Of a stretch of 64,000 bases of DNA, positions 8,137-41,700 are shown piece by piece (the stretch's first letter is position 1; each line of letters starts with the position of its first letter). The notes under the pieces are model-generated. The model made no database searches. It was not told the DNA's origin and saw only the letters and a program-made list of their open reading frames with translations. The position numbers and the translations under genes were made by a program. This DNA comes from a bacterium HR10 (GTDB taxonomy: Bacteria > Acidobacteriota > Blastocatellia > HR10): contig BEHM01000016.1 in the NCBI GenBank assembly GCA_002923315.1, forward strand, positions 1 through 64,000, in the 5' to 3' direction.

Positions 8137-8161
8137 TTGGCAGACAGACAGACAGTATACT
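8137..8161 (+). promoter_or_regulatory. Promoter-like element with (GACA)n spacer, 13-nt form
   Basis: TTGGCA at 8137-8142 and TATACT at 8156-8161 are separated by 13 nt made only of the tandem tetranucleotide GACA and a final G. The ATG of the downstream secreted-protein gene lies 32 nt after TATACT. The same element with one fewer repeat unit stands at 39778-39798. The spacing is shorter than the 16-18 nt normal for sigma-70 promoters, and no better -35 lies at standard distance. Promoter function is inferred; the repeat and its position are seen directly. Confidence 0.5.
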
Positions 8162-8193: not shown

Positions 8194-8994
8194 ATGAAGA
8201 AGGGAAATCTCTTCGGATGGGTTATCCTCGCGGCCACCGGCATGGGGCTTCTCAGTGGGGTCGGTGGTCGGTCATCGTCGTCCCAGCTCGCGCACTATCC
8301 CGTCAAAAGAAGCCATATCGTCTCGGAGGCGGGGACCCCTGTGGTGGAGATCGTCGAGGCTGTGGCCGAAGGAGTGCCGCAGCGGCTGGAGCGGTATGCC
8401 TGCCGGGTGCGAAACAATTCCCCCAAGGAGATCACCGCATTAGCGGTCCGATGGACGATCACTTGGTCCGATGGGGCGTCGGAGTCCTCCGACTGGGTCT
8501 CTCAGTCCCGGGACAGCCGGCTCGATCCGGAAGGGCGTCCCCTCGCCCCGGGCGAGATCAGTGTCTTTGAGTCCTTAGGTCCACATATCGTAGAGGGGAA
8601 GGAGCTGAAGAGCCTTCACGTCGCCGTTGATTACGTCGAGTTCGCCGATGGGACGAGTCTGGGACCGGATTTCTCGGGAGCTTCTCAACGGATAGCCTTG
8701 CAAAGGGCGGGAGCCGAAGCCTATCGGCAACGGTTATGGGCGATCCTTCAGGAGCAGGGCCGTGAAGCTCTGATTCAGAGGCTTCTGCAGGGGGAGGATC
8801 AGCAGGAGTCAGAATCTGCGGGTAACGTGGCGGCGGGTCTCACCGTTCGACAATTGGCCTTTCTCAGAGAGGGGAAGGAGGCGTATCGCCAGCGGCTCCT
8901 CAGCATCTACCGACAACGGGGAGTGGCCGAGGTTGAGCAAAAGCTCTTGAGAGATGTCACGGCCACAGGCGCTAAAGTCCACCTGCAGCGGTGA
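8194..8994 (+). CDS. Secreted protein of unknown function with a duplicated helical motif
   Basis: I do not recognise this family. From ATG 8194, 7 nt after a GGAGGG site, it encodes 266 residues. A signal peptide (about 1-25, basic start MKKGN then hydrophobic) suggests export. Residues 45-160 look like a beta-sandwich (for example RVRNNSPKEITALAVRWTI), as in Ig-like secreted domains. The C-terminal part holds an internal duplication: residues 172-199 and 226-253 share the pattern EAYRQRL followed by QRLLQ or QKLLR. A longer in-frame start at 8131 would place the promoter-like GACA repeat inside the gene and is unlikely. Codon choice looks less G/C-biased than the neighbours. It stands alone, 166 nt after the aminotransferase and convergent with the FAD-reductase operon. 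Confidence 0.7.
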   Translation: MKKGNLFGWVILAATGMGLLSGVGGRSSSSQLAHYPVKRSHIVSEAGTPVVEIVEAVAEGVPQRLERYACRVRNNSPKEITALAVRWTITWSDGASESSDWVSQSRDSRLDPEGRPLAPGEISVFESLGPHIVEGKELKSLHVAVDYVEFADGTSLGPDFSGASQRIALQRAGAEAYRQRLWAILQEQGREALIQRLLQGEDQQESESAGNVAAGLTVRQLAFLREGKEAYRQRLLSIYRQRGVAEVEQKLLRDVTATGAKVHLQR

Positions 8995-38262: not shown

Positions 38263-39366
38263 TTATCTCCCTCCCCATTGGGCGAGGGCGGCGCCGGGGA
38301 AGGGCTCCATCTCGGTCATCCATTCGACCTCTTCCTCTTCAGAGCGGAAGTGCTCCAACCACAGGGGCTCTTCGAGCAGGGATCCGAGGCCGAGCGCGAC
38401 CGACTCCAGGGGATGCTCCGCCCGGAAGACGGGGATGCCGAACTCCTGCTGAAATCGCACATCCAGATCGGTGAGCAGCGATCCTCCGCCCGTCAGTGTG
38501 ATGCCCGTCGCGCAGAGATCGGCCGCCGTCTCCGGCGACATCCGTTCGAGCATGAAGCGCACGCCTTGAAGGATCGTCTCCACCAGGCCGTTCAGGATGG
38601 AGAAGACTTCATCGCTGGTCAGCGTGATCTCACACGGGGCACCCGTATGGGCGTTCTTCCCCGCGACCACCATGTGCCGAGCGGGCGTTCGGGGAAGTGC
38701 TGCACCAATCGTGATCTTGATCGCCTCGGCCATCTGCTCGCTCACCATCATCCCGTAGCGCTTCAGCACGTAGTCGCCGATGGCGCGATCCATCGCGATG
38801 CCCGCCACATTCAGGGAGTACGCCGCGATCAGGCCGGAGGCCGTGACGAGGCTGATGTCGGTCGTCCCGCCGCCGATGTCCACGATGAGACTCGCTTGAC
38901 CGTTGTGCGCCAGCGCCCCCGCGCCCAACGCCGCGGCGATCCCGTCCTCGATGAGGATCGTGTGAAACCCTCCAGCGCGACGGGCGGCCTCCAGAAGCGC
39001 GCGCCGCTCGATGGACGTGGAGACGCTCGGCGTGCCCATCACCAGGCGCGGGAAGACCCAAGGGCGCAATCGGTAGCCCAAGGCGCGTTCCAGCAAACAC
39101 CGCAGCAGCTTCTCCGTCAGCTCGTAATCGGCCACGACGCCCGATCGAACCGGACGATGCACGACGATCTCGCGCGGCTCGCGCCCGAGCATGCTCAGGG
39201 CGTCGCGCCCGACGGCCACAACACTTCCATCGGTGCGATCCACGGCGATGGCCGTCGGCTCGGCCAGTACGATCCCTTGATTCCGCACATAGATGAGCGT
39301 ATTCACTGTCCCCAAATCCACCGCCACATGCGGTGCCAGCACGTGAGCGACTCGTTCCCAGAGCAT
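38263..39366 (-). CDS. mreB: MreB/actin-like rod-shape protein (divergent)
   Basis: An actin-fold ATPase of 367 residues. DLGTVNTLIYVRNQGIVLAEP is the phosphate-1 loop, IVDIGGGTTDISLV is phosphate-2, and LTGGGSLLTDLDVRF marks the adenosine region. MreB filaments guide lateral wall synthesis in rod-shaped cells. It is divergent: the usual EEP preceding the AAAIGAG stretch is EDG here (LIEDGIAAALGAG). A C-terminal tail of about 30 residues rich in Glu, Trp and Met (FRSEEEEVEW) is extra. mreC and mreD are absent. ATG 39366 follows GAGGAGG. It may be a second MreB-type paralogue rather than the main one. Confidence 0.85.
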   Translation of the reverse strand: MLWERVAHVLAPHVAVDLGTVNTLIYVRNQGIVLAEPTAIAVDRTDGSVVAVGRDALSMLGREPREIVVHRPVRSGVVADYELTEKLLRCLLERALGYRLRPWVFPRLVMGTPSVSTSIERRALLEAARRAGGFHTILIEDGIAAALGAGALAHNGQASLIVDIGGGTTDISLVTASGLIAAYSLNVAGIAMDRAIGDYVLKRYGMMVSEQMAEAIKITIGAALPRTPARHMVVAGKNAHTGAPCEITLTSDEVFSILNGLVETILQGVRFMLERMSPETAADLCATGITLTGGGSLLTDLDVRFQQEFGIPVFRAEHPLESVALGLGSLLEEPLWLEHFRSEEEEVEWMTEMEPFPGAALAQWGGR

Positions 39367-39777
39367 CGTTCGCCTCCTCGTCGTATCGTCTCGCACCTCT
39401 TCATTGCCACCCGCTTAGATGCCCGCGCGACGCCTTCCGTTTCGGGAAATTTGTAAACCCGCTTTTTCTCCGCGCTCACCTCCAAAGGGCGCGGACGCGA
39501 GCGGCCCAGCTCGCCCGCGCGATCTGAAGGCCCGAAGGCGGACTCGCGCAGCGGGATGTCCTCTCCTTTCGCCGAATCATACGGGAGGGCGAGGTGCCTG
39601 GACTGCATGGGGGTGGAAATCTTACGCTGAGGCACGACCCCCTGTGCGGGAATTCGCCGACAGGCTCCTCTTCTCCAACACGAGGGTGCCCTCATCATTC
39701 TCTCGGCCGATCCTCTCCACCCCCCTTCCTCCGGCAATCCCAATCCGAAGGCTGGATGTGGGGAATTCATACGGGGC
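39367..39777. other. Divergent intergenic region, no supported gene
   Basis: Between the mreB start and the GACA-repeat promoter I find no open frame with a ribosome site or a recognisable protein. No tRNA fold or clear terminator is visible. An open frame at 39419-39781 has Pro/Arg/Ser-rich shadow composition. The mreB promoter should lie in the first 150 nt. Confidence 0.6.
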
Positions 39778-39798
39778 TTGACAGACAGACAGTATAAT
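39778..39798 (+). promoter_or_regulatory. Promoter-like element with (GACA)n spacer, 9-nt form
   Basis: A perfect TTGACA (39778-39783) and a perfect TATAAT (39793-39798) are separated by only 9 nt, again made of GACA repeats ending in G. The flank GGGCTTG is shared with the element at 8137-8161, whose spacer is exactly one tetranucleotide longer. The downstream ATG (39836) lies 37 nt beyond TATAAT. No alternative -35 exists at 16-18 nt. Promoter identity is inferred from the consensus hexamers; the short spacing is directly visible. Confidence 0.55.
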
Positions 39799-39835
39799 AG
39801 TGCTTGCAAGGGGAAGCTCGATGAGGAGGGCAGAG

Positions 39836-40234
39836 ATGATGAGCCTTCGGCCTCGGCATTCGACCCCCGGCGGAGGGAAGTGGCTTCTGGTCTTCACCTT
39901 TCTGGCCCTCGCGGTTCCGATCCCACTCTCTTCAAAGGCCCAATGGTACGGAGAAGGGGGATGCGGGTATCAGTGCAAAGGGGCGTGGGCCTGTGATCCT
40001 GAGAACTGTTGGGATCAGTGGTGCGCAAGGGCGCCTTATCCCGAAATGAATTGCAAACCAACTGGTGGTCCTTTCGAGTGTTATTGCTGCGATAATGACG
40101 GTAACTGTGATCAACTGGTCTACATCAACACCTGTGTCGCTATGCCGAGCTGTCGGCCGCCTTCAGAAGAATGGGGTGATGGGGGGCTTCTGAGCAGATC
40201 CCGTGTATCCCTGTGTGAAGGAGGACGATTATGA
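39836..40234 (+). CDS. Small secreted cysteine-rich protein of unknown function
   Basis: I do not recognise this family. The product has 132 residues with a signal peptide (hydrophobic core WLLVFTFLALAVPIPL, likely cleavage near SSKA-QWY). The mature part of about 95 residues has 13 cysteines, including WACDPENCWDQWC and FECYCCDNDGNC, so a disulfide-knotted extracellular or periplasmic protein is likely. No metal or enzyme motif is evident. GAGGAGGG lies 5 nt before ATG 39836; ATG 39839 and an upstream GTG at 39800 are alternatives. The stop overlaps the next gene's ATG by 4 nt. Codon use is less GC-biased than in flanking genes. Confidence 0.72.
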   Translation: MMSLRPRHSTPGGGKWLLVFTFLALAVPIPLSSKAQWYGEGGCGYQCKGAWACDPENCWDQWCARAPYPEMNCKPTGGPFECYCCDNDGNCDQLVYINTCVAMPSCRPPSEEWGDGGLLSRSRVSLCEGGRL

Positions 40235-41361
40235 GCACGTTCGTGGCTCTGGCGCTCTTGTTGTCTCTTCACGCATCGGCTAAGGACCTCGCATTCGTCG
40301 AGGAATGGAGCCTGGCCGGGCCTCGCTTCAGCGAGCACTCTGTTTTTCGATATTTCCTGGGCGGGGACGGTAACCTTTATCTCTACGAGGTTCAACGCGC
40401 GCATGGCCTTTTGACTGGTCCGGGCCGACTTACAGCGATCAGCCCGCAAGGGCGCATTCTGCGAACTGTGGAGAGCCCGTTTTTCTCCTCTCTGGCCATC
40501 GCTGTGGACCGGCAGAGCCGCATTTACCTTTGGGGCATGGAGGACGCTCGAAGCCTCATCCGGATCTTTTCACCTGAGGGGGAACAGATCCGCACTCTTG
40601 AGACCCCGACGCTCCAGGCCGATCTTCTCCTCGTGGATGCGGCCGGCTTCATTTATGCCGTTGGCCTTCACGTTCACAATGGGCGAGAGGCCCGCTTCGA
40701 GCACTTGGATGGCACGATCGTTCATGTCTTCGCTCCGGATGGGCGCGAGGTAGCCGCTTTCGGATCATGGGAGGACTCTCTCCCTCTGAATCGGAGGGTT
40801 CAAGCGGCATCTCGCTCTCTTCTGGCCTTTGACCGGGATCGCCTTCTTCTCTATCCCAATCGTCCCATGCCTCCGGACCGTTTCCTCTCCCCGCTTCAGG
40901 TCTTCGCCGTTGATCGAGGTGTGCCTCGTCTGCACGCGACCTTTGATCTTGGAAGGCTCTCCAGCGCGATGATCGGCAGTCGTGTGGAAGCTCAACGCCC
41001 GTTCCTCTCTGAGGATGACGTTGTGGAAGGTGTGGCGGCTTTCAACGACCGTGTTGTCCTGAACGTCATGCGAAAGGCTCCGACCGGGAGATTTCAAAGC
41101 GTCATCCTCTTGATCTCACCTGAGGGTCGCGTTCTTGAGGTTCCCGTGCCTGCTCCTGGACTGGGCCGCCTCATTGGTGTGGATTCCCATGGCCACTTCT
41201 ACTTCGAGTATCGCCACCCTTCATGGAGCGTGGTTAAGGCTCGTCTGATTGAGCGCCAAGGCGGGGTTGAGCATCGGATCGAAGGGCAGATCGTCGGACC
41301 GCGACCGCAGCGGGCCACTCAGTCTGGAAGTCCAGGGGCCAGAGCGAGGCCCAAGGTGTGA
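40231..41361 (+). CDS. Exported beta-propeller (NHL/6-bladed-like) protein
   Basis: A 376-residue protein with a short signal peptide (FVALALLLSLHASA). Several blade-like repeats of the form V-D-x3-R/G-F-I/H-Y follow, for example AIAVDRQSRIYLWGMEDAR, LLVDAAGFIYAVGLHVHN and IGVDSHGHFYFEYRHP. Between the blades are phrases such as RIFSPEGEQIRTLETP and HVFAPDGREVAAFG. This is the pattern of NHL or 6-bladed propellers that bind peptides or sugars. The last 25 residues are Arg/Gln/Pro-rich. It is translationally coupled to the Cys-rich gene (ATGA), so the two probably act together, perhaps as a ligand and its binder. No catalytic residue is recognisable. Confidence 0.75.
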   Translation: MSTFVALALLLSLHASAKDLAFVEEWSLAGPRFSEHSVFRYFLGGDGNLYLYEVQRAHGLLTGPGRLTAISPQGRILRTVESPFFSSLAIAVDRQSRIYLWGMEDARSLIRIFSPEGEQIRTLETPTLQADLLLVDAAGFIYAVGLHVHNGREARFEHLDGTIVHVFAPDGREVAAFGSWEDSLPLNRRVQAASRSLLAFDRDRLLLYPNRPMPPDRFLSPLQVFAVDRGVPRLHATFDLGRLSSAMIGSRVEAQRPFLSEDDVVEGVAAFNDRVVLNVMRKAPTGRFQSVILLISPEGRVLEVPVPAPGLGRLIGVDSHGHFYFEYRHPSWSVVKARLIERQGGVEHRIEGQIVGPRPQRATQSGSPGARARPKV

Positions 41362-41456: not shown

Positions 41457-41487
41457 TCCCCCTGATCGAGAGGTTCTTTCACAGCGC

Positions 41488-41700
41488 GGCGGGTGCCCGA
41501 AGGGCCTGCAGGCATGAGGGCGCTTCGGGAGAATAGGGAAGTCCGGTGAAAGTCCGGCACGGCCCTCGCCACTGTGATGTCCCGCATGGTCGGCACTCAG
41601 GCCACTGGCCGGCGACGGCTGGGAAGGCGCTCGACCTGCTCATCGCGTGGATGAGCCAGGGACTCAGTCAGGAGACCTGCCCGCTCGCGTGTGGCAGAAA
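41488..41700 (+). promoter_or_regulatory. Cobalamin (adenosylcobalamin-type) riboswitch
   Basis: The leader holds the hallmarks of a B12 riboswitch. The early block is AAGTCCGGTGAAAGTCCGG (41539-41557). The B12-box region GCCACTGTGATG follows at about 41568-41579. GAGCCAGG at 41653-41660 and AGGAGACCTGCC at 41670-41681 complete the core. It ends about 20 nt before the btuF start. By family knowledge, ligand binding lowers expression of the downstream uptake genes, probably by hiding the ribosome site, since I see no clear terminator hairpin. The exact ends are approximate. Confidence 0.93.

Follow-up and report, generated by a model that had tools for sequence, protein, structure and literature searches.

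What does a promoter do when its consensus −35 and −10 hexamers are held apart by a tandem repeat? The question is raised by a site at 39778 in the 64,000-nucleotide (nt) stretch of DNA analyzed here (hence, the window), for which an initial annotation had described perfect TTGACA and TATAAT hexamers with only 9 nt of GACA repeat between them. The sequence confirms this description (Table 1). A second element had been reported at 8137 with 13 nt between the hexamers; that spacing is correct, but neither of its hexamers is perfect and its first repeat unit is degenerate.

Table 1. Features of the two GACA-spaced promoters of the window and of their surroundings
Feature	Coordinates	Strand	Basis or remark
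Promoter 5' half GGGCTTGACA, with −35 hexamer TTGACA at 39778-39783	39774..39783	+	Sequence; 30-member alignment
(GACA)3 array	39780..39791	+	Sequence; inter-hexamer spacer GACAGACAG at 39784-39792, 9 nt
−10 hexamer TATAAT	39793..39798	+	Sequence, shuffles; 37 nt upstream of start codon
132-aa protein, export-like N terminus, 13 Cys	39836..40234	+	Shine-Dalgarno sequence GAGGAGGG at 39823-39830
376-aa protein, second operon gene, ATGA overlap with the first	40231..41361	+	All-beta model, beta-propeller matches, low confidence
−35 hexamer TTGGCA of second window member	8137..8142	+	Sequence
13-nt spacer, (GACA)3 + G, preceded by degenerate first unit GGCA	8143..8155	+	
−10 hexamer TATACT of second window member	8156..8161	+	Sequence
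266-aa protein, hydrophobic N terminus, one Cys	8194..8994	+	Orthologue found in G004 only, behind a 7-unit array
MreB gene	38263..39396	−	Divergent from the GACA operon
Cobalamin riboswitch (Rfam RF00174)	41474..41698	+	Just past the GACA operon, separate unit; the gene after it reads like a periplasmic B12-binding protein

A dispersed family of GACA-spaced promoters

The 39778 site is the sole match to TTGACA-N3..25-TATAAT in the window, no match was obtained in 100 shuffles, and the only two tetranucleotide arrays of at least three units in the window are those of the 39778 and 8137 promoters. These are 2 of 16 GACA-spaced promoters in the genome to which the window belongs (G000; 3.13 Mb in 118 contigs). 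The string (GACA)3GTATA occurs there in 10 exact copies and 1 copy with a single mismatch, besides imperfect ones, and all 11 lie in promoters of a common design, GGGCTTGACA-(GACA)n-G-TATAMT, placed 32 to 48 nt ahead of a start codon. Likewise, all 13 occurrences of CTTGACAGACAG are in such promoters; adding the variants TTGGCA and TTAACA, as well as a copy truncated where contig C59 ends, brings the total to 16 loci. Arrays of at least three exact units (GACAGACAGACA) are found in 14 places in the 3.13 Mb, every one inside a family promoter. The shuffles, the (GACA)3GTATA counts, and this placement together rule out a chance origin. A general excess of microsatellites is also ruled out, as 234 kb of G000 sampled around the promoters contained two other tetranucleotide arrays of at least three units, each of three units.

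In all 16 members the −10 hexamer lies 32 to 48 nt from the start codon and is followed by a Shine-Dalgarno sequence, which is what a real −10 element should show. The family has a tandem repeat between the −35 and −10 elements of a plausible promoter, one of the features expected of promoter-spacer phase variation through simple sequence repeats. In three weaker members the −10 side is imperfect (GAGGGTATACT at C7, GACGGTATGCT at C74, and CTATGCT at C15). Contig C59 ends within a GACA array of at least six units, which hints at heterogeneity in repeat number. Four of the promoters are clustered within 8 kb of contig C12 (L109, 3467-14140); this neighborhood, which also contains a thioredoxin-like gene and two genes for ABC-2 permeases, may have a role in export or in the handling of disulfides.

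Spacing and conserved flanks

We aligned 30 family promoters from six related genomes. Their spacers measure 5 nt (n = 4), 9 nt (n = 11), 13 nt (n = 6), 14 nt (n = 1), 20 nt (n = 1), 21 nt (n = 4), 25 nt (n = 2), and 33 nt (n = 1); none of the 30 falls at 16 to 18 nt, so that a 17-nt allele is also absent from the set. The remaining TTGACA-N4..34-TATAMT sites of G000 behave differently: 10 of 10 have the ordinary sigma-70 spacing of 16 to 18 nt versus 0 of 11 GACA sites (Fisher P = 3 × 10−6). The spacing rule of the organism is therefore ordinary, in keeping with the 17-nt optimum assumed in the initial annotation, and the GACA promoters are exceptions to it as a group.

On the −35 side, TT is invariant (30/30), the preceding C is present in 28/30, and G is found at position −3 in 25/30 and at position −2 in 29/30. 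The alignment resolves into an upstream block (A-rich bases, one free base, and GGGCTTGACA) and a downstream block (GTATAMT, three free bases, and GGCC-like bases), both constant while the intervening array changes in length; the sequence farther upstream is unconserved. Conservation of the outer CTTGACA edge and of its GGG flank thus persists at distances of 5 to 33 nt from the −10 hexamer, without helical regularity. AAANGGG ahead of CTTGACA and the GGCC-like bases, which begin at the fourth base past the −10 hexamer, are conserved in the family; together they are absent from the ten canonical promoters of G000.

These features bear on an alternative already offered in the initial annotation, namely, that the repeat is the site of a repressor or an alternative sigma factor. 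In such a reading, the array would be bound beside the −10 hexamer, the number of units would be tolerated, and length would drift neutrally. The fixed position of GACAGACAG next to the −10 hexamer at any n, the family-specific GGG and GGCC-like flanks, not found together in the canonical promoters, and the lack of members at 16 to 18 nt are all compatible with it. However, a regulator with a fixed site has no need of a CTTGACA edge and GGG flank that remain conserved while shifting with array length, and this weakens the alternative to the point where we consider it unlikely.

Phyletic distribution and differences in array length

Among 58 genomes (G000 included), the family pattern was recovered only from G000, G001, G003, and G004, which belong to one genus, and G005, from a sister genus. 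A shorter exact search added one locus in G002 and a second locus in G001, the latter with TATATT; each has G rather than C before TTGACA. G004 is Bacterium HR08 (HRbin08; BEHK01), which NCBI places in unclassified Bacteria only; we take this group to be Acidobacteriota of hot-spring origin. We found no literature on such repeats in this lineage. A wide distribution was rejected: a scan of 84,980 species genomes, with a pattern that demands at least three units and that shorter arrays elsewhere would escape, matched, besides HRbin08, only rumen Clostridia and one member of Bacteroidales, unrelated by context. In the rumen Clostridia (L074, L077, and L083), a similar dispersed element is headed by TTGACA(GACA)n...TTTATAAT promoters, whose spacers measure 17, 13, and 13 nt; this GACA-spaced promoter, including its 17-nt copy, is independent of the G000 family.

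The ten GACA promoters of G004 have 2 to 9 units, and array length differs in five of seven orthologous pairs between G000 and G004, three by exact units and two where an array is imperfect. The clearest case is C22 of G000 versus C113 of G004, 94% identical over 2,432 bp with two gaps, one of which is a GACA unit inside the array. The C12d and C5b arrays are one unit apart, and the window 8137 array and its C146 counterpart are three units apart. The C2 and C88 spacers differ by one base, and those of C14 and C4, one with an imperfect array, by seven. No change is seen between C12c and C5a or between the 39778 promoter and its C3 orthologue, which has n = 3 in both species. At the C14 locus, the spacers in four species are 14, 21, 13, and 9 nt, the G002 member being assigned through its flank and neighboring gene only. 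Between G001 and G002, promoters with similar flanks are one unit apart. The G004 paralogues C54a and C54b have 9 and 3 units, although 60 bases adjoining the array are identical in the two. At L112 6839 (G004 contig C88), CTTGACAGACAGACA leads into ATAAAAATAAT; this GACA start lacks the customary −10 hexamer and is perhaps a decayed family member.

The variation in repeat length that had been proposed for this promoter is hence observed between orthologues and between paralogues of the family, mostly in 4-nt steps and in whole units among related genomes, but not at the 39778 locus itself. Judging from the sequences, slippage would be the simplest cause of such whole-unit steps.

Downstream genes

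Most of the 16 genes behind the G000 promoters encode a hydrophobic, export-like N-terminal segment, in agreement with the exported-protein operon envisaged in the initial annotation. Their products have a median Cys content of 5.8%, versus 0.8% in the window genes (P = 2 × 10−4); the C22 protein (353 aa) and the 266-aa protein of the window, with one Cys each, are the low-Cys exceptions. Despite the common promoter, the downstream proteins do not form one sequence family, and those scanned, including the 132-aa protein, matched no Pfam or NCBIfam family. A single-sequence model of the 376-aa protein is nearly all beta and matches beta-propellers, at low confidence (pLDDT 56); its G004 orthologue and a weakly related G002 gene are likewise behind GACA promoters. 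The model of the 266-aa protein is of low confidence.

In three of the 16 genes (C12a, C14, and C20; L109, L115, and L117), a frameshift or a stop interrupts the frame or the in-frame start has been lost, as would suit genes that are silent much of the time. Species with different downstream genes have the promoter and signal-peptide region in common at the C2 locus. Conservation of such a region ahead of different downstream genes is seen in four species, at 8662 in L113, 2789 in L112, 8508 in L126 (− strand), and 9574 in L124; in sequence, this looks like a cassette-like swap of the mature part at what is apparently one genomic position.

Two further readings might be built on these observations. 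One would make the −35 half a relic: the promoters would be read weakly or from the −10 hexamer only, the arrays would be passive microsatellites, and the family would have spread through copying of promoter-signal-peptide cassettes. That most copies are out of register, that 3 of 16 downstream genes are broken, and that the C2 region recurs with different genes would fit. Relics should decay, however, and TT is retained in 30/30, with GGGC before it nearly so, next to an unconserved upstream sequence. A −35 half that is nearly perfect where it is predicted to be inactive favors switching over decay, and we regard the relic as improbable. In the other, the copies are silent cassettes, whose repeats provide short homology for recombination that places one gene or another behind a single active expression site. 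Every known copy is out of register, and different genes do occur behind the same promoter at one position, as such a system would have it; against this, a promoter, a ribosome site, and a start are present at each of the copies, and an expression site with a 17-nt spacer was not found among the 30 aligned promoters. We give this reading very little credence.

A putative slippage-tuned switch

The reading that we favor, with some reservation, is a dispersed, multilocus family of sigma-70-type promoters tuned by slippage, most of whose copies are out of register as assembled. Because array lengths differ between related species, the set probably works as a collection of genetic on/off switches. 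The −35 half AAANGGGCTTGACA and the −10 half GTATAMT would be joined by the GACA array, and replication slippage would alter the array in 4-nt units, moving the halves in and out of register. In perfect arrays, the hexamer 17 nt before the −10 element is flank or NNNCTT at n ≤ 4 and CAGACA (4/6) at n ≥ 6. The −35 box itself ends in GACA, so that n = 5 is predicted to place a perfect TTGACA at 17 nt and turn the promoter fully on. With n ≤ 4, no −35-like hexamer would stand at 17 nt and the promoter should be off or basal; with n ≥ 6, CAGACA should give weak activity, making the switch an asymmetric rheostat. Each cell might then express its own subset of mostly exported, mostly Cys-rich proteins, with a beta-propeller-like gene behind at least some of the Cys-rich protein genes. 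We infer slippage as the cause of the length differences, transcription from TATAMT, and the on/off consequence.

Conservation of both halves in copies with unworkable spacing is to be expected if off alleles regain use. Among 28 in-register arrays, n = 5 was observed 0 times, whereas 2.8 cases were expected under a geometric fit (P = 0.05) and 5.1 under a shifted Poisson fit (P = 0.004). This is suggestive of a rarity of on alleles in consensus assemblies, with the qualifications that the 28 arrays include nonindependent orthologues and that a special regulator would predict the same. Several points count against the slippage-tuned reading: 0 of 30 promoters have a 17-nt spacer, the main window site has n = 3 in both species, and the GGG flank before and GGCC-like flank after are unexplained by spacing alone. 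In addition, arrays of two to three units usually slip slowly.

More tentatively, and with less confidence than in slippage tuning as such, we envisage that this uncultured, probably free-living lineage could use one slippage-tuned switch, whose repeat unit rebuilds part of the −35 box (off at n ≤ 4, fully on at n = 5, and leaky at n ≥ 6), to control some sixteen proteins, for the most part exported and Cys-rich; in most cells nearly all of these would be off, and rare on-switching would maintain them. If it acts as a switch, a single promoter design used across the genome of an uncultured lineage, with arrays of 2 to 9 units and ahead of exported, Cys-rich proteins without a known family, would extend contingency loci to environmental communities, in settings such as competition and evasion of phages or grazers. 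The family also offers a natural spacer-length series for relating sigma-70 spacing or repeat number to output.

Comparison with known systems

The best-known cases of promoter-spacer phase variation come from host-adapted pathogens and concern single genes or one gene family. For the T-tract of the Helicobacter pylori sabA promoter, a rheostat-like mechanism has been described (PMC4081817); graded rather than on/off output is similarly predicted here for n ≥ 6, while sabA, in the account given there, is a single gene with another type of tract and no repeat that rebuilds the −35 box. In Mycoplasma hyorhinis, all genes of the vlp surface protein family have a repeat in their promoter regions (Citti and Wise 1995; reviewed in PMC10502178). 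As in the vlp system outlined in that review, one repeat type occupies the promoters of many genes for exported or surface proteins, each able to vary independently. Unlike in that outline, the GACA tetranucleotide holds part of the −35 box, the genes belong to many sequence families rather than to one homologous family with the same repeat before every member, the uncultured lineage is not known to be host adapted, and switching is a prediction from sequence. In Neisseria meningitidis, homopolymer tracts lie between the −10 and −35 elements of porA, fetA, and opc (PMC2791445). There, too, repeat length sets the distance between the two elements, with modulation of transcription as the expected result; these are single genes varying in 1-nt steps, whereas the GACA family has 16 loci, 4-nt steps, and spacers of 5 to 33 nt. 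By analogy, we propose the GACA family as a candidate promoter-spacer phase variation system, closest to vlp of M. hyorhinis and meningococcal porA.
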